From Opisthocomus hoazin (Eukaryota > Chordata > Aves > Opisthocomiformes > Opisthocomidae), in assembly GCF_030867145.1 (NCBI RefSeq), contig NC_134434.1, positions 8,680,001 through 8,744,000 of the forward strand: DNA of 64,000 nucleotides, written 5' to 3'. The first letter of the stretch is position 1. Each line of letters opens with the position of its first letter. The position numbers and the translations under genes are program-made. The notes under the pieces are model-generated. The model searched no databases and was not told where the DNA came from. It worked only from the letters and a program-made list of their open reading frames with translations. This document shows positions 12,401 to 34,800 of this stretch, piece after piece.

Positions 12401-15400
12401 ACCTCTATGAGAGCATCAAGAACGAACCCTTCAAAATCCCCGAGGACGATGGCAATGACCTGACCCACACCTTCTTCAACCCTGACCGGGAGGGCTGGCT
12501 CCTGAAGCTGGGTGAGTGCTGGCAGCCGAGCAGACGTGGCCCAGGGAGGAGCTGGGCTGTGGGTGCGATGCCCCTGGGCTGCGTGCGCCTCGCCTGCTGG
12601 CCTGGCTCCTCGGAGCATGGCCCTGTGGAGGGGCAGGAGGCTGGAGATGGGGGCACAGCCCCCATGGGGAAGGCGTCCGGAGGTCCAGCAGCCCTCTGTC
12701 TTCCCTGGGCTGGTCAGCAGGAGCGGACTCGCAGCTGATGAGGCCCTGCCATGCGGCTGGGTGGGCATCCCGGGGGATTCTGCCTCTACACTGGGCCAGC
12801 CCTGGGGTGCAGAGCTGGTACCGGGGTCCGGTGTTGGAGCATAGAGACCACAAGGCCCTTCTCGTCACCAAGTCACAGCGGGGTCCTGCCGGAGCAGGCC
12901 CCCGGGAGCGAGCGGCGAGCTGCCCCAGGCTGCGTGCGTCCCCCGCTCCATGCCACAGAGCAGCCCCTGCCTCACCTCCCCACAGCATTATCCCCTCCGC
13001 ATCCCGGCTCCCGTGCAGGCAGCGTGCATGGCATCCCCGCTGCACAGCCCGGCTGGCGAGGCCAGCGAGCCCGCCCCACGCCCTGGCTCCTGTGGCTTCT
13101 CCTTCGGCAGCTCTGGGGAACCCTCTGCCCGGGTTAAACGAGGGGGGACGACGGGGTGCTGGCAGGAGCGGGGGCTGCTGGGGGCCTTTCCCTGGGGCTC
13201 TCGCTGGGGTCGGGGCTCTGTCCTCTCACTGGGGGTGTTTTTGCCATATTGCCACCCCCTCGGGACGGGAGAGGGGCCTTAGCCCCGCACCGTGCCCTGA
13301 CCGGCACCGAGCCCGGCCCTGGGGCTGAGCAAGGGCCATCTGCCCCCCGACTCTGGGGTGGGGGGACGTGGGGGAGACCCCAGACCGGCCTCTCCTGTCC
13401 CTGAGCGAGCCCAGCGCCCCGCTGCTGGCCGTGCCGGGCAGGTCGGCATCCCACCGCCGTCGGGGCTGCGAGTGGCTGGGGAGGCTCAGCCCGCTGGTGG
13501 GGCAGGGAGGGACCCCCGGGGAGGCTGTGGGGCGGGGGGAGCCAGGCCCCGTGCCCCAGCCGAGGAGAGCCGTCCCGCAGAGCCACAGCGAGCCAGGGCA
13601 GGTTGGCCCCCGCGGTGGTGCCGCCGGCCCCGTCCCTCACGGCTTCCCCGCTGCAGCCCTGCCCCACTGACCCGCGCGGGCGAGGGGGGTTCTTCGGGGT
13701 TTCCTCTTTTTATTTTTTTTTTTCCTTTTTTTTTAATTTTCTTTTCTCCCTCATTTGTATGTTTCCATGATTTTGGCTCTTCCTTTCCTTGCCCCCAACT
13801 CCAGGAGGTACGTACCCCTCTCCCCGCTCTGCTCACGCCGCTGGGGCTTCGTTTCCTTTTCGTTTTTAATTGCTGGTGATTATTCTCATTGCTGCTGCTG
13901 CTAACCACTCGCACCGCCCCGGGGAGCTCGCCTACGAGGGCACAGCACTGCTCCCGATGCCGTCAGTGCAGGAATGTGGGGTGCCAGCCCCGCCAGTGCC
14001 GAGCGCTCCCCCAGACCTGCTGGTCCCCTCCGCTGCCCTGGGCACCCCGCGGCCCGGGGATGGACGGGGCCATGGCCGCCTCTTGCCCAGCCGCTTTGCC
14101 GTGTTCGCAGGCAGCTCGCCCGGCTGCAGCGGGTCTGCCACGAGGGATGGGGACAGGGCTGGGGTGTTCTTGGGAAGGGTCCTCGCCCGTGTGGGGGGTC
14201 GGGGGTGCCGAGTGCCTGGAGCTGGGTGGGAGCAGGCAGGAGCTGCCTGCGCAGAGCCCTGTGCCGTGCCGGGGGCTCGTGGCAGTCCCCGTGCCAGGTG
14301 CCGGCGCTGCCCCGGCTCCACTGCCTGCAGCCCCCGGTGCCAGGGAGCGTTGGTGCGGTGCCGTGCGGCTCTGCTGGCCCTGTCCAAGCCCACTGAGTCC
14401 TGCACCCTGCGAGCCCCAAACCCGGGGCTCCTCCTGCGCTCCCCTGCGCTGGCGCGTGGCCCACTCCCGCCCACAGCCCCGGGACAGGAGGTGGCCCTGG
14501 GGGGTCCGGGGGCCAGAGAGGGTCAAGCCCCCGGTGTTGGGGTGGGCTTGGCTGGAGGGGGCAGAGGAGGCTTTTGCTCTGGGCAGTGCTGGCCCCAGCA
14601 CGGCTCTGGGGCAGGGACGGGTGGGCGGCTGGCTGGCGGGGGGAGCAGGGGGCATGGGGCCTTGGCAGGGGAGCGGGGAGATGAGCATGGCCCCAGCGCA
14701 CACGGTGCCTCCTCGCATCTGTGCCAGCTCTGGGCAGCACGGCCTGGGTGCTGGTCCCACGGTGGCCGCTGCGATGGCCGGAGCACGCTGGCGCGGTGGA
14801 GGGGGAGCCGGGCCCAGGGGTGTGAGCGGTCGCTGAGCCCGGGGAGCGGCTTCTCCCTCTGCGGTGGCGGCTGTGAAACTCCCTCCGACCAAAACTCCAC
14901 GAGCCGCGACCCTGGGCTCGTGCCTGGCATTGGGCTGCGCTGGCCGGGACGCAGCGGGACCGTGGTCGGGGTGAGCAGAGGGTCCCGCGGCCCCCAAGAG
15001 CTGCCTGGCTGCGGTGTCCGCTGGCCACGCTCAGTGTTTTCGGGGGGGAATGGGCACAGCGGTCCTGGCCCGGCACCCCCGCCACCCTCCACCTCCATCC
15101 TCATCCGTCTGCTTCCCGCTGCTGCTCGTGCCGTGCCCGGCGTGGTGTGTGCTGCCTGCTGCTGCTGCGCCCAGCGCCCGCCGGGCTGCCTGGCTTTGCT
15201 TGCGCCCCGGCGCCCGGTGCTTGCCTGCCTGCGTCTGCGGGGCTCCCGCTCTGCCGTCACCTCCGTGCGCCGCGGCCGTGCTCGCCGGGGCTGCGCCCAA
15301 CCTGCCCCTCTCTGCTCGCAGGAGGCAGGGTGAAGACGTGGAAGCGGCGCTGGTTCATCCTGACCGACAACTGCCTGTACTACTTCGAGTACACCACGGT

Positions 15401-16548
15401 CAGTGGCCTGGGCTGGGGCAGCGAGGGGCGCGGGTCCCACCCAGCGCTCGGCCGCCTGCACGGCACAGACCGGGTGCAGCGTCCCGGCACGGGGCTGGCC
15501 GCTCGCCTCCTGCCACGCCGGGGTGCCGGTGACTGCTGGGGTGCCGGACGCAGCCCCCGGGCCGGGCAGCACGGGGTGCCTGTGCCGAGGGGTGCTGGGA
15601 GAGGGGTGCTGCAGCAGCCAGCCCGGCCCGCGGCGTGCCGGTGGGGTTCGGCGGGTCCGGTCTGCAGCTAACGCCTCTGCTTGGCCCCACCAGGACAAGG
15701 AGCCCCGTGGCATCATCCCCCTGGAGAACCTGAGCATCCGCGAGGTGGAGGACTCGAAGAAGCCGGTGAGCACTGCAGCAGGGTCCCGCGGGTGCTTTGG
15801 GTGGGGAGGCAAAGCCAGGAGGTGCTGCACCCCCTGGGGATGCCCCGGGCGAGGTGAGAGGGCTCTGCAGCGGTCACTGGGTGCAGACCTGGGGCCGTGC
15901 TCACCGCGGTGTCCATGGCAGGGCATGCCGGCGCACTGGAGGGTGACAGGCTGTGCCAGGGGAGCTCTTGGTGCTCTGCCTCATCCCCCCAGCCTGGGGT
16001 CCCCTTCGGAAGCGGGGGGCTGCCTCTGAACGCTCTCCTCCCTCCCAGAACTGCTTTGAGCTCTACATCCCCGACAACAAGGACCAGGTGATCAAGGCCT
16101 GCAAGACGGAGGCGGACGGGCGCGTGGTGGAGGGGAACCACACCGTGTACCGCATCTCTGCCCCGACGCCCGAGGAGAAGGAGGAGTGGATCAAGTGCAT
16201 CAAGTGAGTGCTCGGAGGAGCCGGGGGCAGGGTGCAGGGCAGGAGCGGGGTGCGGGGCAGGAGTGGGGTGCGGGGCAGGGGCAGGGACCTGTCAGCTGCA
16301 CTGGAGGGGGGCAGTGCTTCCTGGGCACCCTCTAAAGATGGGGGGCGCATGGGCTTTCCCGGGTGCACAGAGGGACCTGCCCAAGGCCCTGCTGAGCCGG
16401 TCAGACCCAAGCCGCCAGCAGCTTTTGCCAGGCTGTGTGGGTAACCAGAGCCCTCGTTCCCCCTGCCAGGGCAGCCATCAGCCGGGACCCTTTCTACGAG
16501 ATGCTGGCCGCCAGGAAGAAGAAGGTCTCCTCCACCAAGAGACACTAG
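32..16548 (+). CDS. CYTH1: Cytohesin-1, ARF guanine-nucleotide exchange factor
   Basis: Intact spliced gene: join(32..53, 8945..9027, 10144..10208, 10924..10990, 11162..11280, 11795..11875, 11968..12080, 12150..12298, 12400..12511, optional 13805..13807, 15322..15398, 15694..15765, 16049..16203, 16470..16548). All introns are GT-AG. The product is 397 aa, or 398 with the microexon, the same lengths as the human isoforms. Order: coiled coil about 10-60, Sec7 domain about 73-202 with the catalytic glutamate at E157 in the FRLPGEAQ motif, PH domain about 260-377, then a basic tail ending KKVSSTKRH. Family knowledge: cytohesins load GTP on ARF1/ARF6 at PIP3-rich plasma membrane and link to integrin LFA-1. 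CYTH1 rather than CYTH2/3 is chosen from [32 protein letters not shown] and the C-terminal tail. The start is the first ATG in a GC-rich leader; exon 1 codes only MEEEGGY plus one base. Confidence 0.96.
6190..6338 (+). promoter_or_regulatory. CYTH1: Candidate internal CYTH1 promoter
   Basis: A dense CG block in intron 1 carries an inverted CCAAT box (ATTGG, 6287-6291) and an AP-1-type TGACTCA (6305-6311), directly upstream of a start codon in good context and a splice donor. No TATA box. Promoter function is inferred. Confidence 0.5.
6339..6363 (+). other. CYTH1: Candidate alternative first coding exon of CYTH1
   Basis: A start codon in the strong context CCGCCATGG opens MVLRAGGG plus one base and is followed at once by the donor gtgagc. 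The exon ends in phase 1 with a single G, exactly like the main first exon, so splicing to the exon at 8945 gives [17 protein letters not shown] in frame. A short N-terminal variant upstream of the coiled coil fits what cytohesin genes commonly do. Transcript evidence would be needed to prove use. Confidence 0.5.
6486..6740 (+). repeat. CTG/CTC-rich imperfect trinucleotide tract
   Basis: About 250 bp of interrupted ctg, ctc, ccc and cac triplets such as ctgctgctcccactgctg, with frequent changes of phase. It gives leucine/proline-rich, cysteine-rich and, on the minus strand, glutamine/serine-rich open frames that are only repeat artefacts. It lies just 3' of the candidate alternative first exon. 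Confidence 0.85.
8945..10208 (+). other. CYTH1: CYTH1 coiled-coil exons 2 and 3
   Basis: Two coding exons (83 and 65 nt) encode residues from VPSDLTPEE through LGSTEER. Heptad-like leucines and isoleucines in [15 protein letters not shown] and [16 protein letters not shown] form the N-terminal coiled coil through which cytohesins dimerise and bind scaffold proteins such as CASP/GRASP (family knowledge). Residue 17 is Cys where the human protein has Arg; this is probably neutral. Confidence 0.93.
10924..12511 (+). other. CYTH1: CYTH1 Sec7-domain exons 4-9
   Basis: Six exons encode the basic linker [16 protein letters not shown], the whole Sec7 domain and the linker up to the PH domain. The catalytic glutamic finger is E157, preceded by [10 protein letters not shown]. 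The hydrophobic ARF-binding groove region [19 protein letters not shown] is complete. Every exon junction keeps frame and all splice sites are GT-AG. The last exon ends after the first base of a glycine codon, which is what makes the downstream 3-nt microexon possible. Confidence 0.93.
11361..11591 (+). repeat. Minisatellite in CYTH1 intron 5
   Basis: About ten degenerate copies of a G-rich unit of roughly 18-24 bp, of the form ggggagctggggggcacagg alternating with a variant containing ggctacac. It is open in two + frames ([18 protein letters not shown] and similar), which is an artefact. The G runs could form quadruplexes. Confidence 0.85.
13705..13804 (+). promoter_or_regulatory. CYTH1: Polypyrimidine tract driving the microexon acceptor
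   Basis: A T-rich stretch with runs of up to twelve T, plus ttcttttctccc and tcttcctttcc, stands out in otherwise GC-rich intron. Long pyrimidine tracts of this kind are typical upstream of microexons and are where PTBP1 and SRRM4-type regulators act (general knowledge). The regulatory role here is inferred. Confidence 0.6.
13805..13807 (+). other. CYTH1: CYTH1 3-nt microexon (GAG), diglycine/triglycine switch
   Basis: Three bases, GAG, sit between a perfect acceptor (cccaactccag after about 100 bases of T-rich tract) and a strong donor (gtacgt). The preceding exon ends in a lone G and the next begins GA. Skipping gives GGA-GGC (two glycines) and inclusion gives GGA-GGA-GGC (three). Known for this family: cytohesin 2G isoforms prefer PIP3 strongly, while 3G isoforms bind PI(4,5)P2 and PIP3 similarly. 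Confidence 0.82.
15322..16548 (+). other. CYTH1: CYTH1 PH-domain and C-terminal exons 10-13
   Basis: Four exons encode the PH domain from [14 protein letters not shown], containing the phosphoinositide-binding basic residues of the first loop, to [16 protein letters not shown] basic tail ending in KKVSSTKRH and TAG follows. The tail is the polybasic region that supports membrane binding and autoinhibition in cytohesins. Sequence is near identical to mammals, indicating strong constraint. Confidence 0.93.
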
Positions 16549-18708: not shown

Positions 18709-21700
18709 ATGTCGGCTGCGCCAGACGAGCGGCATGGCTTCCTGGAGAGCTTTGCCACGCTGCTGCTGCGGGTCCGGCCGGACGAGTGGAGCAAGTTCGT
18801 GGGCAGCGAGGAGGCCGCGGCCGTGCTGGACGAGTTCTTCAAGCAGCAGGACGTGCTGGAGCTGGGGCTGGGGCTGAGCCCTGCCGGGCAGCTCCTGCCG
18901 ACCGCTGGCTTCCCACCCGCCCTCAGGGGCAAGGACGTCTACTTCGTGAGGAAGAAGAGGGAGAACATCACCTGGAAGAACTGCCGGAGCGGGCTGCTGG
19001 TGGGCGACGTCGGCCCCTCGCCGGTGGAGCAGCTCGGCACCGTGATGGAGGAGGTGGGTCGCCCAGACGGGCGGGCGCTGGGCACAGGCTTGGGACGAGC
19101 CAAGCTCCCTGGGCTCGCCGCTGCTGCCTGGACCCCCGCTGCAGGCTGCTGTAGCCGAAACTGAAGGTGGGCTTGAAAAGAAACTAAATTAATAGAAAAA
19201 AAATTGCCCCAGGCTCTGGCCCTGGCCTGGTGGTGGCTCCTGACCACCCACCCCACTGTGCTGGCCAAGGTCACAAGCCGGGTTTTCTCCTGGGTCCCAG
19301 CTGGATCGCTTGCTCCCGTGGTTTTAAAAACAGCGCAATTCCCCTTTCCCTGTGCCCCACAGCTGGGAAACGTCTGAGTGGATTTCCCTCAAACTTCCCA
19401 TAAATGTCCCTGCTCAGGGGACTGCCAGCCCAGAGCACCCGAAAGCTGCGTCAGGCCCAGGGCCCCTGCGATTCCTCCTCCTCCTCAGTGCCAGGGGGTT
19501 TCAGACGCATGCCAGCCCCTGACCCCACCGGGTGCACTCTGCACCACTCCCAGCCCACGAGAGCTGGGAACCCACCAGAGCATGAGGGGACTCCTGGTCG
19601 TGCTGATGAGAAAAACGTCGTCAACCCGCCAGCGGCTGCCGGAGCTGCGGCTGGGCTGGGGCTGTCCTCGGCCGGGCGGCTGCTCCCTGCCCTTGGCAAT
19701 GGGAGAGCCCGGCCCGACTGAGCCCTCTCCTCCAGGTCGTGGTCCCCCTGCTCCTGAGTGAGGAGAACGTGGCAGGCTGGCCCCGGGGTGGTGGTGGAGG
19801 ACATCGTGCACCAAGCCCACCAGCTGAAGAACGAGCTGTTCGTGATGGGCGGGAAGATCCAAGGGAAGCCCCTGCTCCCGCTGCCGGAGTGCCTGGACAG
19901 CTGGGACGGCTCCAGCACCGTCCTGGACTGGTGGGTGCTGCCGGCACCGCTCGGCGACAGCAAAGCCAGGCAGGGGCCCGGGGCAGCATGGGTCCCTCTG
20001 GGAGGGACGGGAGCTGGGACGACAGCTCTGTCCCTGGGCATCCTGTGCACAGCTGCCCCTCGCAGCAGAGCCCCTTTGGGGGGCTTGTGCCAGGCTGCCA
20101 TGCTGGCAGAGGTGCCCACGAGCAGGCGCGCGGGGCTGCCCAGGGCGGTCCTGGGCCAGCCCCGGTGCTGGAGCGTCACTCGGCTGCCTTTCAGCCTGGC
20201 GGGGCCCGCGGACGCTTCGGTGCTGCACGCTGCCGAGACGGTCGTCATGGAGTGGTCCCAGCAGCTCAGAGACATCCTGAGCAAGGACTCGGTGCAGGCA
20301 CTGCTGGAGGGGCTGCACCCCCTGCCCAGGACCGAGTCCGAGTTCTGGCACACCAGGATGGTCGACCTGCGATGCATCAACGAGCAGGTGCTGCCCGGCC
20401 CGTGGGCGCCCCGCGGCCGTCTGTCCCCAGTGCTGAGCCCCGGCGCTGAGCCCGCCTTTCCCCGCCAGCTGCTCTCACCCCGAGTGACGGCGCTGGCCGA
20501 GATGCTGCAGAAGGCCGGCAGCTGCTTCTGGCTGGCGCTCCAGAGCATAGTCCGGGATGTCGATGCCAGTAAGCCCCGGGCAACGCGGTCAGCAGCTGCC
20601 CCTCGCCCCGCCGGTGAGGCATCCCCGACCCCAACGTGGAGTCTCTGCCCTGGCTCAGGGCTGGAGGAAGCTGAGGATGTCAGCCTCCACCTGCAGCCGC
20701 TCCGCGTCCTGCTGGAAGAGATGCCGCGAGCCGATTACTCCCAGGTAAGCTGCGTGCGGCGAAAGAACCGGGCACCGGCTGGCTTCCTCATCCGCGTAGA
20801 GGCAGCGGTGCTGAGCCCCAGGTGCTGTGTGCGGGGCGGATCTGTCCCGGCTCTCCCGGCCCTCATTAGTGCGGCCACGGCCCTGCACTGACGGGGCTCT
20901 GCTCCCACAGCTGCAGCCCTACGTGGACCAGACGCTGTGCACCATCCTCCTGCTCCGGGCTCGCTGCCAGCACTACGGCTCGCCCGCCCGTGTCACCGTG
21001 GTCCTGCAGGAGATCTGCAACCTCCTCATCGAGAGGGTAGAGCCCCGCGGCCGGCTCCAGTACGGAGCCACCGCCATCCCCTCCAGCCTGCTGTGGGACT
21101 GTGAGCGGGAGGGTGACACGGGGCAGGCGAGGGGTGACGCAGAGACAGCCCAGCCACGGGACCAGCAAAGCCCCCGCGTAGGGCTGGAGGGGGGTTGGGG
21201 CGGCTGTGGGCTGCAGGCGGTCACCGGAGAGCCTGTGGGTCCAGAGGGGGTCTGGAGCCAGAGCATCCCCCGTGTTCCCCTCTGCCAACAGCCCCTGCCT
21301 GTCGCAGACCCGCAGCTTCCTGAGCCCCGAGGATGTGATGAAGGGGCTGCAAGGAGAAACCGAGGAGACCCTAGAGGGAATGAGACTGAGCATTTCCACC
21401 ATAGAGAAGCTCTTCCAGTCCTACAGCACTTACTGCTCCGACCTGATGCCCACATTGTTCCCGGTGGGTGCAGGGGGGTTGCTGGGCTGCCTGGCCCCGT
21501 CCACGGCAGCTCCGCTTGCTGACGGCCCCACTCCACTTCCAGGAGGAGTCGCAGCTCTGGGAGCTCCCCCCCTCTCTCATCTTCAGGAGAACGGACTCCT
21601 TCTTGCACAGGCTCAGGACCATCGAGGTGACAGCACGGCGTTTTGGGGCACGGCACCAGGTGCGAGTGAGCTCCCCTGCACTGGGGATGCTGGGGTGGTC

Positions 21701-22502
21701 CCCTGAGAGTGGCCTGGGGCAAGCTGTGCTCCGTCCTGGGGTGGGCTGGGGCCGTGGGTGCAGCCGAGGGGCAGAGGGGAGGTGGGAGCCCAGCAGCGGT
21801 GCGTTGCTGGGAGCGCAGTGGCATCGTCCCCAGCCGGACACCAGCGGCCCCAGGGCCGGGTGGGCACCCCCAGCCACGCCACGAAGTGTCCCCGGGAAGG
21901 ATGCTCCTCGGGAGCGGGGAGCTCGCAGGACGCAGCACTGCGGCACGGGGAGCTGGGTGCGATGATGGTTTGTGCTCGTCAGGAGCTCTACCGGACAGCC
22001 GACGAGTTTCTGAAGCTGGAGAAGGCAGAGCTGGGAGAAGTGAGAGGAAACGTCCTCGGGAGCCGGGTGTTTCAGATCTACGAGGAGGTCTCTGAACTCG
22101 TTAAGGGCTTTGCTGATTGCAAATACGATCCCTTGGATCCTGCAGAAGAGGTGAGTGAATGCCGGTTTGGCAGCGTAAGCGTTTGCTGAACGAAAAACAT
22201 CGCTTGCCAGCGCGCGCTGGGAGAGCTGCCTGTAGAGCCGTCCTCTGGCAGCACCTGCGCTCGCTCTGGGGCAGGTCGCGGGGCTCCAGGGTCTCTGGAT
22301 TCAGCAAATCCTTCTGGAAGGATTTGGGAAAGAAGTGCAGAGGCTGCGCCAGCTTCAACCATTTTGCTCTGACTGGCAGCAATGGGACAAAGACTGCAAA
22401 TTTGCAGAGTTCCAGAAGAAGCTGCAGGACAAGGACAGGCGGCTGGCCACCGTCTTCTGCCAAGGCTTCGAGGACTGCAACTGCCTGGCATCCGCTGTGA
22501 AG
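18709..22502 (+). pseudogene. DNAH17: DNAH17 N-terminal tail exons 1-10
   Basis: Ten exons with canonical GT-AG borders encode the first part of the dynein heavy-chain tail (DHC_N1), which in the family dimerises heavy chains and binds intermediate chains. Recognisable stretches are LLPLPECLDSWD, FLSPEDVMKGLQGE, DEFLKLEKAELGEVRGN, FADCKYDPLDP and RRLATVFCQGFEDCNCL. The start is the first ATG in the open frame (MSAAPDERHGFLESF); no upstream exon was found. All junction phases agree except exon 2, which has one base too many. The preserved frames suggest recent decay or isolated sequence errors. Confidence 0.75.
19736..19930 (+). pseudogene. DNAH17: DNAH17 exon 2 with +1 frameshift
   Basis: The exon opens in frame with VVVPLLLSEENVAGWPR. 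It then needs a shift by one base to continue as VVVEDIVHQAHQLKNELF, the conserved continuation in DNAH9/11/17 proteins. Exon length 195 is one more than the 194 required by the phases of exons 1 and 3. The extra base lies in the ccccgggg run at 19781-19788. A homopolymer sequencing error is a real alternative. Confidence 0.8.
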
Positions 22503-22667
22503 GTACGCGTGCCCCAGCTCAGCACATCCTTGCCCGAGCGCCGGAGGCTGGCGGCCAGCACGGTGCCCGCAGCCGCACCCGTGCGCGCGGGGGTGACCGC
22601 GGGGCCGTCACCGCGCCGTTGCGGTGACGCTCTGGAGCGCGGCAGCCGGCGCGTCTTTCCCCCGCAG

Positions 22668-22955
22668 CTGGTGCAGATGTTCTCCTCCCGGCTGGAGCGA
22701 CCCTGGATACAGGCTGAGGTTTCCCCCTGCTACTTGGCCCTGCTGGGAATGTTCATGGCCGAGCTGGAGATGGTGAAGGCACTGTATGACGCGCAGACCG
22801 CCCCGCCGCAGCCAGGCCCGGGGAGCGCGGCCGTCAGCAGGAACATGCCGCCGGTGGCCGGGCAGCTGGAGTGGGTTCTGGAGCTGCAGCGGCGGCCGAA
22901 GGATGCGCTCGTCTCCGTCAGCAGCAGGTTCCTGGAGGAAACGGGGGGCATCGAG
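22668..22955 (+). pseudogene. DNAH17: DNAH17 chimeric exon 11 (tail fused to D4)
   Basis: A 96-codon exon with good splice sites and an open frame. Its first three quarters read SRNMPPVAGQLEWVLELQ, the DHC_N1 signature near residue 600. Without a break it continues KDALVSVSSRFLEETGGIE, which in this family directly precedes the stalk near residue 2,880. The switch falls at about 22885-22903. No intron separates the parts and frame is kept. About 2,200 residues are therefore missing inside one exon. Confidence 0.8.
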
Positions 22956-23547
22956 GTGAGCGGGATCCTGGGTCGGTGCACGCCGTGGCTGTGCCCAGCC
23001 CTCTGTCCCGGGGGGGCTGGGGACACCGGGCTGCTTTGGGGAGCGACCCACCCCTCCGCTGCTCTCCTTGGTGCAGCGTGCCTGGGGATGGGGGTCTGGC
23101 GTGACCTGGGGGCAGCGAGCTGGGGATGGGGTCTGGGGTGAGCCGACAGTCAGCCCCAGAGTCAGAGCCTGCCGACCCTCACTGTGCAGGCGGGGATGAA
23201 CCTTTCCTCAGCTCCTGTTTGTCCTTAAAAGTCCACCACAAATAACAGCCTGGAAACAGCAGCTTTTCCCCAGCGCAGCCCAGGTTGACCTGGGGAATTA
23301 GAGCCAGGAAAACCAGAGCTGGGCTTAAAACCAGCATCATCAGTGCTGTGGTCACCGACGTTTCTCAGCCACGCACTGAGCTGTTTAACGAAAAGCAGCA
23401 CTTTGCCTCCTGACCTCGTGGCTGGATGCAGAACCAAGGCTGAGGAAAGCTTGGTTCTACCCCGGCATTTCACCACCTCCACGCGGCGCAGCAGGTCCCT
23501 GTCTGTGCTCCTGGCAGAGCATCTCACTGTCCGTGTTCCTGGCGCAG

Positions 23548-23781
23548 CCCGAGGTCAAGGTCTCCATCAGCCAGTTCATGTCCTACGTCCACAGGAGCGT
23601 TAAGGAGATGTCCGAGACCTACCTGGCCGTGGAGAGATGCTATAATTGCACCACGCCAAAGACCTTCCTGGAGCAGATAAAGCTCTACCAAAACCTGCTG
23701 TCGAACAAACGGAGCGAGCTCACTGCCAAGATCGAGAGGCTGGAGAAGGGGCTGATGAAGTTGCAGAGCACGGTGTCGCAG
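23548..23781 (+). pseudogene. DNAH17: DNAH17 stalk-base exon (coiled-coil helix 1)
   Basis: 78 codons, GT-AG borders, no lesion. PEVKVSISQFMSYVHRSVKE and TTPKTFLEQIKLYQNLLSNK are hallmarks of the MT-domain start in axonemal dyneins, leading into stalk helix 1 (IERLEKGLMKLQSTVSQ). In intact genes the next exon continues with VDDLK and the microtubule-binding tip; here nothing of that follows. Confidence 0.85.
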
Positions 23782-24279
23782 GTGCCTGCCCACAGCATCG
23801 CTCCTGCATCGCGCCCGCTGCAGCTCCGATGGGGGGGCAGCAGGAGGCACATCGCCGCAGGGCGGTGACAGCAGCCACGAGGTCCCCGAGCCGTACCCAT
23901 GGGCTCACTGGGGTGCACAACAGCCCCTTCCCCTTGCTGCACCACCAAGGCAAGGCAGTAGGCGAGGGGACGTCCAGGACAGACAGACCTTGGGCATGCA
24001 CCAAGAGGGGCCACCGAGTAGGGGACCGGGAACAGAATGTGGAGGCCAAAGCATGGGAGGCCGTCTGGAGAGGATGGAGGCCCTGCAATGGGGCGCAGGG
24101 TTCCCGGGTGCACCCCACGGTGCCAGTGACGCTGCGCAGGGTAGCTGGGTGTCCCCAGCCCAAGCAGGGTGGCAGTGCCCTGCTGCAGCCGCTCTCTGCG
24201 GAGCCAGAGCAGGAACGTGGGGGGAAGGAGTGATCCCCGAGCCCGTGCTTCAGCCCAACAGGAGGGGCTGCTGTTGCAG

Positions 24280-24507
24280 AATATCCACCTCGTGGCACGG
24301 TGGCTGGGCACACTGGAGAAGCTGGTGGAGCGGCACAGCCTGGGCAGCCACACCGACTACCGGGTGTTCATGAGCGCCGAGCCAGCCCCCAGCCCCGAGG
24401 CACACATCATCCCGCAGGGACTGCTGGAAAACGCCATCAAAACCACCAGCGAGCCACCGACGGGCATGCACGCCAACCTGCACAAAGCCCTCCACCTCTT
24501 CACGCAG
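24280..24507 (+). pseudogene. DNAH17: DNAH17 AAA6-region exon
   Basis: 76 codons beginning [20 protein letters not shown] and containing the strongly conserved [20 protein letters not shown] and [17 protein letters not shown]. The acceptor is good (ctgttgcag). The donor position reads CAG|GCACCC, not GT, and does not match the GC-donor consensus well. If unspliced, the frame runs on to a TGA at 24853. Confidence 0.85.
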
Positions 24508-24928
24508 GCACCCTCACCCCACCGCGCTCGCGCCCTGCGCAGCCGCTTCCTCTCGACCGCTTCGGGCCAGCACGGCCGGCTGCCCCTGGCCCCGGGGTTT
24601 CGCGGGCTGAGCATCTTCGGGCGCATCACTGCAGACACGCGTTCTGCGCCGGGAGCCAGCCCAGCCCCCGGCCTGTCCTCCTCGGGGTGCCCAGAGCCCC
24701 CGTGTGTCGGGACGCGATGTGGGGGGCAACTGGTGCTGCCCGAGGGTTCCCGAACCACGGAGGGTGCCGGGTTACTGGTGCCTTTCCCAGGGCTGAAGGC
24801 CGGGCTGCTGTGGGTCAGTGCCCCCAGCACGCAGCCTCACGTATCAGCGGTGTGAGCGTGTGTATGTGTGGGGGGATTCTGAATTTTTTTTATAAACAAA
24901 GATACTTCTATGCTTTTTTCTTTCTTTT

Positions 24929-24934
24929 AATAAA
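24929..24934 (+). terminator. DNAH17: Cryptic polyadenylation signal inside the DNAH17 relic
   Basis: AATAAA lies 74 bases after the read-through stop that follows the weak donor of the AAA6 exon, in an AT-rich patch. A shortened transcript could end here. This is inference from spacing only. Confidence 0.35.
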
Positions 24935-25046
24935 CAGCCCTCCGTTCTCCCCTGCCAGCACCCGTTCATTTTCAATGGAGGGATGGCTGATCGCGATATT
25001 CACTCGTTCACTTGCAAACCCACTCTCGCTCTTGTCCCCACTGCAG

Positions 25047-25238
25047 GACACGCTAGGGATGTGCAGCAAAGAAACCCAGGTCAAATGCGTCCTGTTTGCA
25101 CTCTGTTAGTTCCACGCAGTGGTGGCCGAGCGGCGCAAGTTTGGCCCTCAGGGCTGGAACAGATCTTACCCCTTCAACAGCGGTGACCTGGCCACATCCA
25201 TCAACGTCCTGCGCAACTGCCTGGAGGCCAGCCCCAAG
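25047..25238 (+). pseudogene. DNAH17: DNAH17 exon with premature TAG
   Basis: 64 codons with GT-AG borders. The frame reads CSKETQVKCVLFALC, then TAG at 25107-25109, then [20 protein letters not shown]. In related dyneins the residue at the stop is tyrosine (ALCYFHAVV), so a single C or T to G change explains it. The codons after the stop are still perfectly conserved. Confidence 0.88.
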
Positions 25239-25910
25239 GTGAGGGCCGTACGAAGTGACCGTACCTCAGCACAACACACACGACAACAATCAACCTTTTT
25301 TAAAAAAACGCACCCGTTTGCTGCGCACCCGCCTTCTCTCGAGGAAGCGCCGCGCTGCCGGCAGCTCCTCCCCTCCTCCTGCACGCTCGGGCCGGTGAAG
25401 GTGCAGAGCCCTCGGCGCGACTGCGCGGGGTGGAGAGCGGGCGTCCAGCACCAGGCTGGGACGAGCGCCTCGGCGCTCTGTTGGGTTTTTTGTTTAAAGC
25501 ACTTTCCACCTAAAAAGCACGGCCTGCCCCGAGAGTGAAGGTGCAGCGAGCAGGACGGAGTCTCACCCTTCGGAGAGTCCTGCTTTCCCCTGGCCTCACA
25601 GGCACGGTCAGCGCTGACCTGAACGAAGAGCGGACGGCGGGGGTTCAAAGGATGGACGGCTGTGTCCGTACCAGGACAAGGCGAAGTCTGTGGGTGAACA
25701 CAAGAGATGCCTGAGACAAGGTCCCCTGCCTTGCTCCGCCACCAAGCCTCCACAGCTCTGGGGTCTGTCGCTCCCCTGGACACCAGACAGGACAACCCAG
25801 CAGCCATCGCTCCGTGGCCCCGCAGCTCTGCAGTCACGTGCCGCTTCCCCGGGCTGCAGGGGACTTCTGGGGAGCCACGCAGAGAGCCCACGCGGAGCCT
25901 CTCCTCGCAG

Positions 25911-28900
25911 GTACCCTGGGACGACCTCCGGTACCTCTTTGGTGAAATCATGTACGGGGGGCACATCACAGACGACTGGGACCGCCGGCTGTGTCGCACC
26001 TACCTGAGCGAATACGTCCGCGAGGAGATGCTGGCAGGGGAAGCGTGCTTAGCTCCGGGGTTTGTGATCCCTCCCAGCTTGGATTACAAGGTGAGAAAGA
26101 TTAACCTTGCCCTTTGCTGTGGCAAACCACTGCTCTGGATAAATGCGCACGAGTCAGAGTTCCCTCATGCTAACCAAGGGGGAATGCAGGGGAAAAAAAA
26201 GCTTTGGTCCCATGGAAACATGCAGAATCACTGCAAAAACAATTCCAGTGGCCGGGCTGGTAAGGGAAAAACTTAGGTAAGATGTGTGTAAAAATCCATC
26301 CTGAACAAGCAGCGCCAGCTCGCTTTGAAGCAGCAGCACCAAACCAAAGCGCGCTGCCGTATTCTCAAGGCTGAAGTGACACTCGGGCGCCTTTGTGCGT
26401 GCCTGCTAAACCGACGCCCGCGCCTGCCCTGCGCTTAGGGCTACCACGAGTACATCGACGACAACCTGCCCCCCGAGAGCCCCTACCTGTACGGCCTCCA
26501 CCCCAGCGCGGAAATCGGCTTCCTGACGGTCACTTCGGACGGGCTTTTTTGGACAGTTCTGGAAATGCAGCCCAAAGAATCGGACGCTGGAGGAGGCGCG
26601 GGTGTCTCCCAAGAGGAAAAGGCAAGTAAAGTCTCTGCTTCGTTTCAGCAAGCCACGGCAATTCAGAGGCCAGGGGGGGAGGACAGCTGTGGGCCCACAC
26701 ACAACGGACATGAGAACAGGACCCGTAACAATAACCGACTTCTTACCAGCGCAAGAGAGCACAGAGCCGTGGTTCTAGCCCAGTACTAATGCCGCAAGCC
26801 GTCAGCTGGAGAGGGGGAGTTGCTAGCGCAGAGCTCAGGAGCGACACTGCAGTCTGCTCAGCTCCTGTCTAGTGTCTGTTTCAGCGTATTTGCACCCGTT
26901 TCCCTGTGCCCAGGCTCTCCTTTGCATTTCAGTAACTTTGCCGCTCTTTGGCATTGGCAATGTACTTAACACGAGCAAACGCTGCACCGTGCCACAGCTG
27001 CTGAGCAGGCAGCGTGGCTACCGCAGCCCCGGGCAGGCGAAGCCCCGGGCGTGACGCCCGACGGTCCCCGTCCCAGCCTCAGCGCTCCCCGCTCCTCCCT
27101 GCCCTCGCATCGATCCACAGCCCAGGCGGGCAGGCAGCTCCTCACGCAGATCGTAAGACCATTAGCTGCTCTCCTCCAGCACCTCCGAGAAACCCAGAGG
27201 GTAACGGGAAGGGGCTGAAATGCTGCCCCAGCGTATTCCTTCTGCTCATTCCGTCTGAACACGAGGTGTAGTTACAAAAGTCAGCCGTGTTCAGAAAAGT
27301 GACTCTTTGACGGGGTCCAGATGCACCAGCAGCAAAACGCGGCTCATAGGCCACGTCCTCAGCAGCTGGACCAGGCTCCGTAACTTCCATTCATGATGGC
27401 AACTACTGAAAATACAGATTTTTTTTTTTTTTTTTAAAAAAAAAAGGAAGGGGGGAAAAAAAAAGTTTTCCTTCTGACTCCCTGGATTTTACACTTGAGT
27501 TTCACAGCCTCCTCTTACCTTCTTGGCTATTCAAAAAGAGCTGCACCTTTTTAAGATGCACGAGCAGTCAGTAAAAGAATAGACAGAGGAGAAAGCACAG
27601 GAAAACACAAAGGCAGGAAAAAGAAATCTTACTAAGCTAATTAGCTGTTAACCCACAGCACTTTTCCTTAGATCAGAGCAGTTCTGCCGCATATTCTTTG
27701 CAGGTGAAGTCAGTCCTAGACGAGATTATCGCGAGGCTGCTGGAGCCGTTCAATATGGAGGAGATCATGGCGAAAGCGGTGGACAAGACCCCGTACGTTG
27801 TAGTTGCCTTCCAGGAATGTGAGAGAATGAACATCTCGACCCAAGAGATCAGGCGCTCTCTGAAAGAGATAGACTTGGGCCTGCAGGTAGGCGTGAGGCA
27901 GCTCCTGGAAAGCACCTCTCCCCACCAAACGATTCCCCGCGATTCGCCAGCGGCTGTTGCTCGATTCAAGCCTTGTCTTGTTCAAAGTGCTTGGCTCCCC
28001 TCGCTCACACTCTTACAGATCCCGCTGTGCTGGCTCCGGCCAGACGCTGCCAGCCTCCTGCTTCGCGAGGAGTCTGAGGCCAAATGCTTCCACCAGTCTC
28101 GCTTTCTTCAGATAAAACTGCCCAGGCTTTTCTCTTCTTTAAAGGGAGAACTAACGATTACGTCACACATAGAGGAGCTGGAGAACGCGCTCTTCTACGA
28201 CAGCGTTCCTGAATCCTGGACACGTTACACCTATCCCTTTCTCCTTAGCTTAGGAGCCTGGTACGCAGACCTGCTCCTTCGGATTAGGGCGAGCAGATTT
28301 CTTGTGAAAGTTAAAGCTTAGGGAGCAAGCGGATACCACAGAAAACCAGGAGCCACCTCCATCAGTGTACAGTGGTTAACTGGTTTATTTTGTAATATTA
28401 ACTTAAGCAGTTTGAAGTACCTGAAATGGCCTGTTACCCAAGAATGAGAGCAGAAGTCTGAAAAGGGTTCACCACCGGAGTATATCACTGCTTCAAAAGA
28501 ATATTAGCTAACCCCATCATAATGTTATATGTCTCAGAAGAAAAAAATATTTTATAAAACCATCTATTTTAAGTGTGGCTTTGTTAAAAAAAATACCAGC
28601 AGTATTTACTGCCATCCAAATTCGTGGTTTAAGTTTCATTGCTGCAGTGGAATCTGCTATTATTCACCCCAGACCACCTCCACCCTAGTCTGCCCATCTG
28701 GAAGACGACCTGAAGCTTGCGTGTTGGGCACAGTGAGGCACCAGCTCTTTGTCACCTCATACCTCAAAGCAGTACGCTGCTGCTCAAAGGCCACGCTGCA
28801 CTCTGAAGCACTTGGCTGGTTTTATTTTCCAGGAACTGGAAGTCTGGACAACAGACTTTGTACTGCCTGCAACAGTGTGGCTGGCAGGATTCTTCAGCCC

Positions 28901-30037
28901 CCAGTCCTTCCTCACTGCCATCATGCAGTCCACGACCAGGAAAAACAAATGGCCGCTGGACAAGATGTGTCTGTCAGTGGAAGTGACCAAGAAAAACCGT
29001 GAGGATGTAAAAGCTCCACTCAGAGAAGGCTCCTACGTGCATGGATTATTCATGGAAGGTAAAAGATTGTATCTTTTGTGAGATGTTTCAGACATGGAGG
29101 AAGCCCCGTTCAGCCTTAAAAACTCTTGCACGCAGAGCAGGTGTTCGTACTCATGGGCTTATTTGGATTTGTACAGCTTTTGCGAGAGCTCCAAGCAGCA
29201 GAGCCTTTATGCGGCACTGCTGTCAGACACGCCAGCTGAGGGCAGCACCCGCCCAGCTCACACAGTTTCACAAACCAGAAGCTGTTTGTGGAAATTCAGA
29301 CTGCGTATCATGAACCCAAGGACCGAGTTGTCTGAGGCCACACGGCTCTAGGGAATAAATATATCACACTCTTATCTGATGTGCAAGTAAGATGAATCAG
29401 GAAACTCAGAACCTAAAGCTAAAAACGAGGGGGAATGAGATGGGCAGCATCAGCAGAGCACCGAAGGGGTCCACTTAGGACAGCTATCGTAGTTCCCACC
29501 ACGGCCAAGTTCTACCTTCAGCTGTGCAACTTCCATGAAACTCCTGCTGAAGGGATGAGTGGGGACAGGATTTATTTAGACATCCCACACACAGTAAGGC
29601 AAAATGCATTCATGAGTCACAGTGAGATGAAAACACGTTAGTTAGCCCTAACGACTACAAAGCCATGGGTACCCAGCCTTCACACCCCACCCTCGGCTCC
29701 TTCCCACCCGCAGCAGTTAGGAAAACAGCCCCCTCTAAGTGGCGAAGCCACTGGCAAGCTGGCACCCTGACAGTCTCATCATGTTGCAGGCGCTCACTGG
29801 GACATCCCTTCTGGTGCGATCGCAGACGCTCGGCTGAAGGAGTTGACGCCGATGATGCCAGTCATCTTCATCAGAGCCATCCCTGCGGACCGCATGGACA
29901 CCAAGAACGTCTATGAATGTCCTGTCTATAAGACCCGGACGCGAGGTCCCACCTATGTCTGGACCTTTAACCTAAAGACAAAAGAAAATGCTGCGAAGTG
30001 GGTCCTCGCCACTGTGGCTCTGCTCTTACAGATCTAA
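25911..30037 (+). pseudogene. DNAH17: DNAH17 C-terminal domain exons 15-20
   Basis: Six exons, all open and in phase, encode the C-terminal domain that caps the AAA ring in the family. They include [66 protein letters not shown] and the terminus [20 protein letters not shown], ending in TAA. Two donors are GC: AAG|GCAAGT after the second exon of this group (a good GC-AG site) and AGG|GCGAGC after the fourth (weaker). Such preservation without a motor is odd and argues for recent loss or assembly error. Confidence 0.85.
27419..27464 (+). repeat. Back-to-back poly-T / poly-A tract
   Basis: Seventeen T are followed directly by ten A, then ggaagggggg and nine A, within a DNAH17-relic intron. It could fold as a T/A hairpin. 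No retrocopy body could be recognised on either side, so a simple-sequence origin is more likely than a retrotransposon tail. Confidence 0.6.
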
Positions 30038-30144
30038 ACTTCAATGACTGTGGAAAACAGCAAATGCTTTTACTTGCAAAAAACCTCAAAGTTGTGTAAC
30101 TCAGACAAAGTTTGATTGTAACAGAACTATTTTAGCCAAGTATC

Positions 30145-30150
30145 AATAAA
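30145..30150 (+). terminator. DNAH17: DNAH17 polyadenylation signal AATAAA
   Basis: Hexamer in tatcAATAAAaacattg, 108 bases after the stop codon, followed by tgctgtcatgtgg as a possible GT-rich downstream element. Confidence 0.75.
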
Positions 30151-30174
30151 AACATTGCTGGAACTGCTGTCATG

Positions 30175-31542
30175 TGGAGACTGCTCTTAAAATACGTGGA
30201 GTTTCTCACGACGGATACTGGTTTTTAGTTGGTGGTTTCTGATAAAGTGCTGGTTGAGCGCCAGGCCACCGATGGAAGCCAAACGGAACAATTGCGTGCA
30301 GCTATCCGGATTCCTTTCCTTCTCATAGCTCTCTGTCTTTCCACAGCTATTTGTTTGATCGCTTACTGCAAACTGTGAGCAGAAATCATCAAGCCGTGTG
30401 CACGGCAGACTCCTGCATGGCAGCACGCATCTGTTCAGACCAGGTGGACGCAGAAAGGTGCAGATTTGGCCCAGTTCACCAACACACCAACCAGCACATC
30501 CCAGAGAAAGTCCATCTGCCAGCAGATCAGTCTCTGAAGTATGTCCCTTTCTATTTCTAGGCTACAGAAGCTACTCTACCCTTTCTTTCACAACACATAA
30601 TAGGCCTAACTGCTGATACAAATTGGGTGTTGAGATCTGCTCTGGTCACCATACTGGAAGCCAACGCCCGCTGCTTTATCATAAAATAATTTACCAAAAT
30701 TCCACCCCATGAAATATCTGAACAATTAGTTCTAAAATGCAGCTGCACAAAACTGTCCTCACAGCTAGCAGTAAGAAAAGCCACATGGGGAGGCAAGGGG
30801 AGCTGCTTGTTTCTTTATAAAGTAGTAGCACTGAGACTAAATTACCATTAAGCTTTACGCTTATCTTCAGCTTTTTCAGGTGTCAGAAATCCCTTTTGTT
30901 GGCAATACAAGATCAGAACACAGTGCACACGCTCTGCCAGAGAAACTCATGGGCAGCCCAAGCCTGCGCTCTAACACATTTTTGTCTGGCTTCCCAACCA
31001 AGTTCTTTGCAGGGTGTGCATTACGGTTTGAGCTTCCCACTCAGCAAGTGACATCCAAAAATCACACTGGCACCAAAAATCCTCTCATGCCCTCTCCACA
31101 ATTCATGAAGGACACTGATAACACATCTTGACATGAAGGAGCCAGATACACAGCCCCAGAGATGGAGGCCGTATTTATGTAAATAAATAGGATGTGTGAA
31201 CACTCAGCGTCAAGGGCACACGCTCAGGTGCCAACTGCATGGACTATGTGCACAGCACAGAAAAAAAAAAAAAAAATCTAAGAGTGATTCCATGAAGCTC
31301 AGAGGGGCTCCAGTTACTGGGCAGCTGAACAGCCAGGCAAACCCAGCACGCTGTGTGAAACAGAACGGCAAAAACAACTGCCCCTCTTAACAAACATCTA
31401 CAAGGTTAAAGCAAAGCCCTGATCAGATAAAAAGAAGACAAAGTATTTTAAATACTTCAACAACGTTTTCTGTAAGCTGGTCAAGATAAAAACACAATCC
31501 TTCTCCACAAAACTCTGAAAGGGACATTTCAGAAATGGGAGC
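30175..31542. other. Convergent gap between DNAH17 and PGS1
   Basis: About 1.4 kb of AT-richer sequence between the 3' end of the + strand dynein relic and the 3' end of the minus-strand PGS1. It contains an A17 run at 31260-31276 and no open frame that resembles a protein. In human these two genes overlap slightly tail to tail, so some of this may be alternative 3' UTR. Confidence 0.6.
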
Positions 31543-31548
31543 TTTATT
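31543..31548 (-). terminator. PGS1: PGS1 polyadenylation signal (AATAAA on minus strand)
   Basis: TTTATT on the + strand, 276 bases beyond the PGS1 stop codon. It is the first canonical hexamer met on the minus strand. Longer 3' ends cannot be excluded. Confidence 0.65.
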
Positions 31549-31823
31549 TCTGTGCATGAGAAATACCCTCGTATGGGTTCTCTTCCACTGCCCCTTCCAG
31601 AAATTCTAGTAGATGAAACCCAATACAGACCCTGAGCAATGACTGCAGTCAGTGGCAAGAACCCCAGAAGAGAGATGCCTGGTTTTTTCCCCACATCACC
31701 TATGTTTCCATCATCTACTTCTTCCACAAGACAGAGTACTGCACTTCTTCATTGCAGTCAGTGCAATACAAATTCCCCGTAAGAATGGCAGAGAACTCAC
31801 CCAAAGGAGCAGCTTTTCTTCTT

Positions 31824-34800
31824 TCAAAAGAAATTCTTGATCAGAGGTGTTACCAGCTTCACCCACAGTTTCACGTAACGATTTGGCTGCTCAAATGTTG
31901 ATGATGAGACTACACCTGAGCAGAGGTAAAGCTGCTCCTGCTCCTATACAGGAAAAGAAACATCATCCCGGTAAATCCTACGTGTTAAATTACATAATGG
32001 CCTCTAAGAAAAGTGAGTTCTCAGATAAAACTGGCATGGATCCCGCCAAAAGGATGTCTCCTTTCTCCCACAAGCCTGAACATAAGACCCTCACTCCATG
32101 CAGCACAACTCACACGCAACTGAACCATCAAGGAGCGAGCACAGGATCTGTCCCTCACACCTGTCCACCACAGCACTCCACCTTTCGATGACTATCAGTA
32201 CGCTAAGTAACCGAACCTCAAGAATTAGCAATTTAAACTCTACAAAGAGCAAAGGTTTTGCCTTCTTGTGCCCCACAGCTGCAGGAGAGCTAAGCTTCAA
32301 TTTCAGAAAAATCCTAAACCCCTTGCTGTAACTGCCAGAAAAGGAAGCCTTACCATAATCTCAAGAGACTGGCTTACGCAGCTCTTTCTAGGCAGAACTC
32401 AAGCGCTGTGTTTTCAAATGAATATACAGTCATGATTTCAACTAAATTACCAGAAACACTTAGGCTTCTCCAGTGTGTACACAATACCGCTGAAGGAGGA
32501 AATGAACCATCATGATGATAACACACGCTTGCGTTGCACGTGAAAGCAGCTGTTTGATCAAAGGTAGAAGCAGTTTTCTTATCAAAGCCAGTTAGGTTTC
32601 CAGATTTGCAGGCAAACAAGGAGCAGAGCAGCTACTGTAAGTCAGTTCATAACCTTTTTTTCATTAGCTAAGCTGTTACAAACAACATAAAATCCTCCGC
32701 ACTGTTTAAATTCAGGATGGAACAGGGAAGCAGGAACCAAGCATAAGACCAAAAAGATGAAACAACAACAGAAGGAAGACATCTGTGTGCCAAATCAGTC
32801 TAACTTTAGAAACCCAAATGCTCCAAGAGCTACAGTCAGCCCTGCACCATGGTCATCCGATATAGCGAGGTCATCTGCTCACTGGAAGCAAGACCATTTA
32901 TCTGAACTGAAGTTCAGTTCATTCAGTAGAACATCCAAAGATACCCAGACCCCTCAGATCTCTTCCCAAATCTCATCACACGTTTATAAAATGGAACTGA
33001 ATGTTACATAGGCAAAGTGATTTCATGGCAGCGTACCAGTAACGTATTAAGTCTTCTAAACAAAGACCACAGAACAGCAAACAAACAGCCAAAATCAGCT
33101 TCCAGCAAATGGGAATGGCTTCAGGCCCTGTAAATTAGATCACTGCAGCACTATTTCAGAAAATTCCTTTGTCATATTTTCATTGATTCTCCCCTTCCAT
33201 TAGAAACAAGTAGAGGCAAGATATGAATTGAAATATCCAAGCAACTCTTCCAGTAATAGAATTGTTTTTGATTAGATAGACTCTGACTCATCCTGGGGAA
33301 GAGCCCTGATGCAACAGGGCAATTCCCATTGATCTTCAAGACAACCGTGCCTTCTTATGCCAGGACTTGGCTTAACAGAATGCATTTTTGAGATCCCTAA
33401 GTCCCACACAGAGGCACCAAACCAATTTGCTTTGTATCAGAGCACTACAAGAGAAATTACTTGTGACACTGTCAGTTCCAGCAGAAGATTCAGAGTCAAA
33501 ACAGCTGGGGAACCAGGCAGGATTTAGAGAAGCAGCAAAAGTGCTGAGCAGTACAAGCTGCCTAACAATAAAAAAAAAACCAAACAATAAACCAAACCAA
33601 AAACCTGGGATACTGAACATTAAACCACTGAAAAATGTTTGTCTAGATTCCATAATGTCTTATTATTATTCACAATTATATTATGTCATATAACTTCAGA
33701 GACAATCCAGCCAGCCCAGAAATCCTCTTACTGTAGAAACTACACTAAGATCCCCTGCCTCTGTTCACCTCCACAGCCTGTGGGCAGCCACCCAGAAGCT
33801 AACTGACCGGCATTTATACTCCTACAAAGGATTTCCCAAACGCCTGAGAAGCAAAATCCTCCAGAAGTCCCAGATCAGCAATTCAAAGGGCCTGACCTCA
33901 TTATCCTAGAGCACGGTGCAACCCTGGCAATGCACAGACTTGGAGGATAAAGCCCAAGAACGTGCTGCGTGATCAGCGAGCAGAGGAGGGCCAGCAGATC
34001 CTGGCTGAACGCTGTCTCTCGGCATCCAGTGCCTGAGCACTCCCAACACTCGAGTTCACCGGGGACACATGTTCTTTCCCGTTATGGCCCCTGTTTCCCA
34101 GAAACAGGCACTCGCAGCAGGCATCTCATCAATAGTCACTTAACTGACAGCTCCTTGAGACTTCCTATGCTCGAGAAGGTTTTGAATTATTGTAGCTGGA
34201 GGTTTTTATTGCAGCTGCGTCATCAGCATTCCCTGCGTGACCAAGAAGCACAACATCATGTTATCTCCCCGCAATCAGCCACTTACCTGATGGAGTTGCT
34301 GCTGCAAAGCTTTATTTTCTGTCACTATCGCAACCTGAGCTTCCAAGTCGCGATGAACCGATCGATACCCGAAATTCGGCGAGCCAATGAGCGTCAGGCA
34401 GGGAAGGTCGCTTCCCGCCAGGTACAGCCAGAGGCCTGCAAGAAAAAGAGGAGAAGAAAGGAAGCGTGGCAGACAGAGGAAACGACCGGGGCAGCCTCCG
34501 ACAATCGCTTCACTTAGAAGAAATGAATTAAACATGTTAGATTACAGTAACTATAAAAGATCACGACACAAAGCAAGCCTCCTCACAGATGGTCTAGCAT
34601 GTCCTGTACAGCTTCGTACGAACCTTGGGGTGCCCGTGCACAGTGGCATTGTCCAAACTCGTGCTCTTAACACAGGGCTGCAGCACGCTCGGTGCCGCCC
34701 TAGGGACACATTCCCAGGAATGTAAATACACTGCATGGAGGGGCCCCCAAAATAATCTGGAACAAGTCACTATCATCAGATTAGAGGTCATTTTGCACCA

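Follow-up and report, generated by a model that had tools for sequence, protein, structure and literature searches.

The 64,000-nucleotide stretch of DNA analyzed here (the window), positions 8680001–8744000 of contig C21 in a single Opisthocomus hoazin assembly of 1.48 Gb and 415 contigs, contains what is left of the gene for the dynein heavy chain DNAH17. Specifically, 20 exon pieces lie on the + strand between 18709 and 30037 and together encode 1,226 residues, corresponding to residues 1–~600, ~2961–3059 and ~3936–4463 of mammalian DNAH17. The dynein tail begins in exon 1 (18709–19053; residues 1–115) and continues through exons 2 (19736–19930), 3 (20195–20387), 4 (20469–20568), 5 (20659–20744), 6 (20911–21036), 7 (21308–21463), 8 (21543–21626), 9 (21983–22150) and 10 (22380–22502) into exon 11 (22668–22955). 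Exon 12 (23548–23781) carries the start of the stalk, residues 2982–3059. The remaining block comprises exons 13 (24280–24507; second half of AAA6), 14 (25047–25238; AAA6), 15 (25911–26090; AAA lid), 16 (26439–26621), 17 (27704–27886; C-terminal domain), 18 (28145–28288), 19 (28833–29058) and 20 (29790–30037; C-terminus with the natural stop codon). This model was built by hand with splice sites from sequence alone, and three boundaries were moved to better splice sites: the start of exon 13 to 24280, the end of exon 17 to 27886 and the start of exon 18 to 28145.

The identity of the remnant is supported by both its sequence and its location. The top PDB match is 9fqr_I4 (DNAH17, 4,463 amino acids), a length consistent with an earlier preliminary description of this DNA that put the survivors at about 1,226 of some 4,460 codons. 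The tail aligns with residues 2–600 of that chain (316 of 593 residues identical; 708 bits overall, with DNAH9 next at 356), while the stalk piece (2982–3059) together with the C-terminal part (3933–4463) scores 1,106 bits, compared with 973 for DNAH9; in the C-terminal part 422 of 526 residues are identical. As these scores favour DNAH17, the possibility that remnants of DNAH9 were mistaken for it was rejected. Because the best match and the position between CYTH1 and PGS1 agree, we consider the locus the DNAH17 orthologue. The description had named the tail start, a scrap of D4/stalk and the C-terminal domain as the surviving parts, which is correct as far as it goes; the second half of AAA6 survives as well.

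Missing are the linker and AAA1–AAA4, save for the final part of AAA4, as well as AAA5, the first half of AAA6, the microtubule-binding tip and the greater part of the stalk. Two deletions can be located. The first, of about 2,360 codons, lies within exon 11, which is a hybrid: a tail exon, followed to residue ~600, is fused mid-exon and in frame to the end-of-AAA4 exon, followed from ~2961, with the junction at ~22890–22896. This assignment is based on the PDB comparison, in which domain 1 stops at chain residue 600 and domain 4 matches 2959–2981. The second deletion, of about 877 codons, now falls inside the intron of 498 bp that separates exon 12 from exon 13 (23782–24279; acceptor set by hand). 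Consistent with these losses, a Pfam search of the remnant protein (E 0.001) returned DHC_N1 (profile positions 1–397 of 562), the second half of Dynein_heavy, AAA_lid_11 and Dynein_C, and no AAA_6, AAA_7, AAA_9 or MT model; the end of AAA_8 scored 24.4 bits, slightly below the cut-off of 25.6. Thus, the claim that the P-loop AAA modules and the microtubule-binding tip are gone is borne out by both the PDB alignment and Pfam, with the last stretch of AAA4 remaining in place.

The remainder of the gene carries smaller lesions. In exon 2, a one-base frameshift in a C4G4 run (19781–19788) changes the frame between two halves that both match DNAH17, and in exon 14 an in-frame TAG (25107–25109) occupies the position of mammalian Tyr4033. 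Donors of the GC type follow exons 13 (gcaccc), 16 (gcaagt) and 18 (gcgagc), that is, 3 of the 19 introns. The gcaagt donor after exon 16 is of the usual GC-AG type and is therefore acceptable, so only those of exons 13 and 18 are clearly poor. All of the lesions in the preliminary description (deletions, frameshift, stop and poor donors) were therefore found, with the qualification that one of the three donors is sound. Compared with a functional DNAH17, then, the kept residues of the tail (DHC_N1) and C-terminal domain are closest to DNAH17; AAA1–AAA4 with their Walker A motifs are not present at the locus; the start of the stalk (2982–3059) is all that is left of stalk and tip; and the frameshift in exon 2 and the TAG in exon 14 interrupt what should be a single open reading frame across the exons. 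Given the deletions, the frameshift, the premature stop and the weakened donors, this locus can yield no dynein motor.

To ask where the missing parts might otherwise be, the whole genome was searched with the deleted parts of DNAH17; human probe sequences are approximate, and the matches given here are those in the scored part of the candidates. A query for residues ~598–1373 gave 12 matches, all at C21:4.49M (40–62%) or C4:59.3M (36–48%). The query for ~1374–2962 gave 32 matches (29 of 204 candidates scored), of which the beta-type ones lie at C21:4.50–4.55M (61–89%) and C4:59.26–59.29M (55–83%), the others being more distant dyneins. That for ~3060–3936 gave 53 matches (52 of 102 scored), with beta-type matches at C21:4.56–4.63M (57–77%, covering the query end to end) and C4:59.18–59.23M (44–64%) and the others in other dyneins. 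The spliced window protein itself had 44 matches (38 of 91 scored), near-identical in the window alone and followed by DNAH9, DNAH11 and distant dyneins. An AAA1 family search of the genome gave 64 matches, none inside the window, and among the loci fetched AAA1 exons more than 80% identical to DNAH17 occur only at C21:4.5M. The search for AAA1–AAA5 exons elsewhere in the assembly, suggested as a check in the preliminary description, thus recovered DNAH9, DNAH11 and distant dyneins and nothing DNAH17-like among the scored candidates. There is a single DNAH17 and no third beta-type locus among them, on which ground a duplicated or relocated gene was rejected. The orthologous place, the kept introns and the absence of a functional copy elsewhere among the scored candidates are the features of a unitary pseudogene.

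It is informative to compare the remnant with its beta-type relatives in the same genome. DNAH9, at C21:4.47–4.66M, is also a beta-type outer-arm heavy chain and is on the same chromosome; its exons match the C-terminal exons of the window at 63–74%. Unlike the window gene, it retains exons across the regions deleted there and carries four Walker A motifs, all intact; in the loci read with the DNAH17 query, the 2,732 residues that align are free of in-exon stops. DNAH11 lies at C4:59.16–59.32M and is adjoined by CDCA7L at 59.148–59.160M, the arrangement of the human neighbourhood. Over 811 aligned residues it shows three clear in-exon stops, two more near exon ends and a three-codon deletion; a frame change beside that deletion was dropped from consideration, as the odd letters may be intron read-through at the exon end. 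Where mammalian DNAH17 and human DNAH9 share the same residue across exons 13–15, the DNAH9 of this genome retains 161 of 167 sites, the window gene 148 of 166 and DNAH11 83 of 117. The difference between the window gene and DNAH9 (Fisher, p 0.011) suggests that DNAH17 has been under relaxed constraint, and its decay looks younger than that of DNAH11, although basal rates of the paralogues may differ.

The heavy chain that partners DNAH17 in mammalian sperm, DNAH8, is affected as well. Three gamma-type loci were found in the genome. The exon examined at C3:96.6M has DNAH5 as its best PDB match (122 vs 110 bits), that at C2:18.57M has 9fqr_I3 (119 bits; DNAH5 97), and that at C3:71.2M (71.17–71.26M) is about equally distant from both (102 vs 96 bits). 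The entry 9fqr_I3 is labelled Cilia and flagella associated protein 57 (CFAP57), yet it aligns as a 4,730-amino-acid dynein heavy chain; by its length and its company with DNAH17 it was taken for DNAH8. The better PDB score of 9fqr_I3 led to the rejection of an assignment of C2:18.57M to DNAH5. Surviving exons at C2:18.572–18.602M are up to 94% identical to human DNAH8, and those read are open. However, the 30 kb read, in which there is no N, lacks the AAA1 P-loop exon and the exons for query residues 131–505 (end of AAA1, AAA2) and 680–797 (part of AAA3), and at E 50 no convincing trace of them was found in the C2 locus; the Walker A motifs of AAA3 and AAA4 differ from the human ones. Genome-wide, the 882-residue DNAH8 query for AAA1–AAA3 gave 52 matches, of which those on C2 cover only 68–131, 503–680 and 824–882, whereas the gamma loci at C3:96.6M and C3:71.2M cover most of it; residues 481–510 are matched by none of the three, except on C2 from 503. 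DNAH8 has therefore lost AAA1/AAA2/AAA3 exons, a conclusion that rests on missing exons and not on stops.

The neighbours of the remnant provide a local control. In the stretches found, CYTH1 (8944–16545, + strand; residues 8–398), PGS1 (31827–44106, − strand; residues 48–556) and SOCS3 (residues 1–225) have no in-exon stop or frameshift. That CYTH1 and PGS1 are intact thus holds for the stretches found; that they are of exactly human length finds no such support, as the first 7 residues of CYTH1 and the first 47 of PGS1 had no tblastn match and PGS1 carries four inserted residues. SOCS3, for its part, falls 16 residues short.

It is also worth considering these observations in light of what is known from mammals. 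According to two reports, DNAH8 and DNAH17 may in sperm take the place of ciliary DNAH5 and DNAH11 (PMC7256033), sperm of patients with DNAH17 defects are without outer arms (PMC7256033), the axoneme of Dnah17-null mice is disrupted (PMC7041708), and DNAH9 is reported to occur along the sperm flagellum (PMC7041708). They agree with the premise of the preliminary description that loss of DNAH17 leads to sperm-flagellum defects in mammals. The affected men and mice likewise have no functional DNAH17; in them the loss is pathological or produced by knockout and comes with defective sperm, whereas in the present case it describes the assembled genome of a single bird. Other ciliary genes have been lost by deletion in birds, namely WDR93 and CFAP46, according to PMC10445033, in the main text of which 'DNAH' does not occur. 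Those losses affect the C1d projection of the central apparatus; in the hoazin the lost gene encodes a motor heavy chain of the outer arm on which mammalian sperm depend, and, unlike in those cases, the partner of that chain in sperm is damaged too. In open-licence literature, searched through listings and abstract openings, we came across no report that birds have lost DNAH17, DNAH8 or DNAH11.

Taken together, two deletions, a frameshift, a stop, weak donors, open neighbours and the lack of a second copy among the scored candidates support gene decay. We consider it very probable that the locus is a true DNAH17 that has become a unitary pseudogene, in an explanation that includes, by inference, the decay of the DNAH8–DNAH17 pair and its replacement by DNAH9 with DNAH5 or an extra gamma chain. 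In the assembly, two internal deletions have removed the motor of DNAH17, with the frameshift, stop and weak donors in what remains. The dedicated sperm pair would have become dispensable and then decayed, and sperm outer arms would now be built with DNAH9 as beta chain, joined by DNAH5 or by the additional gamma-type chain encoded on C3. Because motor exons are missing from DNAH8 too, while DNAH9 shows no damage where it was read and DNAH5 and the third gamma chain cover most of the AAA1–AAA3 query, the consequence predicted in the preliminary description, replacement by a paralogue or altered sperm, gains weight. Given that DNAH8 and DNAH17 are damaged in the same bird, it can be argued that the sperm outer arm no longer uses the dedicated pair; it probably uses DNAH9 with DNAH5 or the extra gamma chain instead. 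A more sweeping proposal, that DNAH8, DNAH17 and DNAH11 are all dead and that every motile axoneme, including that of sperm, runs on DNAH9 with DNAH5 or the third gamma-type chain, is plausible, with our judgement leaning slightly against it.

Several observations weigh against decay and replacement. Most surviving exons are open and have usable splice sites, and as both deletions keep the frame there may earlier have been a shortened product. Of the conserved sites, the tail retains only 157 of 211 and the C-terminal part 351 of 396, the DNAH9 control covering exons 13–15 only, and retention below that of DNAH9 could partly reflect a faster-evolving sperm protein. Several match rows of DNAH5 and the third gamma chain contain stops, in exon or intron, so that these two chains may not be intact. 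Dnah5 and Dnah9 are extremely low in mouse spermatogenesis (PMC7256033), which speaks against the replacement step. In addition, two weak dynein matches lie at C9:24.64M (57% over 47 residues) and C9:24.61M (39% over 84 residues). These are perhaps the remnant of a further beta-type dynein in a neighbourhood paralogous to that of DNAH11 and CDCA7L.

It must also be asked whether the damage belongs to the assembly or to the individual. An assembly gap, given that no N occurs anywhere in the window, and poor base quality, given that DNAH9 and the neighbours are clean where read, were ruled out. An intact DNAH17 could still have been collapsed or mis-joined, with the frameshift and stop as base errors, and the short C4G4 run in a region of ~65–70% G+C is where such an error might fall. 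We regard this as very unlikely, as at the first junction two different exons are fused internally and in frame, and not at a repeat, the missing parts are not found in DNAH17-like form on any contig among the scored candidates, the found stretches of CYTH1, PGS1 and SOCS3 and, on the same chromosome, DNAH9 where read are clean, and a similar loss is seen in DNAH8 on a different chromosome. Furthermore, this assembly resolves near-identical sequences: of 329 candidates for a feather keratin probe, 150 matches were scored (up to 92% identity; C30, C26 and C3), with many near-identical copies each placed separately. These keratin matches also confirm that the genome belongs to a bird. That the sequenced bird carries a null haplotype in a species that keeps an intact DNAH17 would fit the scarcity of small lesions, a single stop and a single frameshift across 1,226 codons beyond the deletions, as expected of a young event; it is nonetheless improbable, given that conserved-site retention (148 of 166, against 161 of 167 in DNAH9) suggests a relaxed history and that DNAH8 exons have been lost as well.

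Two further possibilities concern what the damage has led to. A motorless product might have been retained as a structural component of the outer arm, with a tail or C-terminal fragment still made; the hybrid exon is in frame, exon 12 joins exon 13 in frame, and the 422 of 526 C-terminal residues identical to mammalian DNAH17 would be in keeping with this. However, the exon 2 frameshift and the exon 14 stop break both remaining blocks and the donors of exons 13 and 18 are weak, and such a product seems to us barely credible. Alternatively, DNAH17 would be just as dead and sperm outer arms would have been lost altogether, their heavy chains not replaced. Both sperm-specific outer-arm heavy chains are broken, and the ciliary chains are hardly expressed in mouse testis (PMC7256033), as that would lead one to expect; on the other hand, DNAH5, DNAH9 and the third gamma chain are still available, and the entire axoneme is disrupted in mice lacking DNAH17 (PMC7041708). 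We think such a loss unlikely.

If the decay of DNAH17 and DNAH8 is accepted, the hoazin resembles a natural knockout of the outer-arm pair that is dedicated to sperm, making it directly testable whether ciliary outer-arm heavy chains can drive a sperm tail and whether the switch alters swimming. Were the more sweeping proposal true, a bird lineage would have abandoned the vertebrate arrangement in which cilia and sperm use different outer-arm dyneins. DNAH11 is the mammalian left-right dynein, and its decayed state would add a natural loss of that chain. There is also a warning for annotation, since any DNAH17 gene model called at this locus would represent no more than a truncated remnant.

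Some minor observations remain. The dynein matches at C9:24.61–24.64M adjoin CDCA7-like matches at C9:24.589M. A lone degenerate AAA1-like dynein exon lies at about 3545–3658 of the 7 kb C8:21178001–21185000, in which no other dynein exon was found. Along the window from 27000 to 47000, which takes in the end of DNAH17 and PGS1, G+C falls from ~70% to 42–57% and returns to 70–85% near SOCS3.

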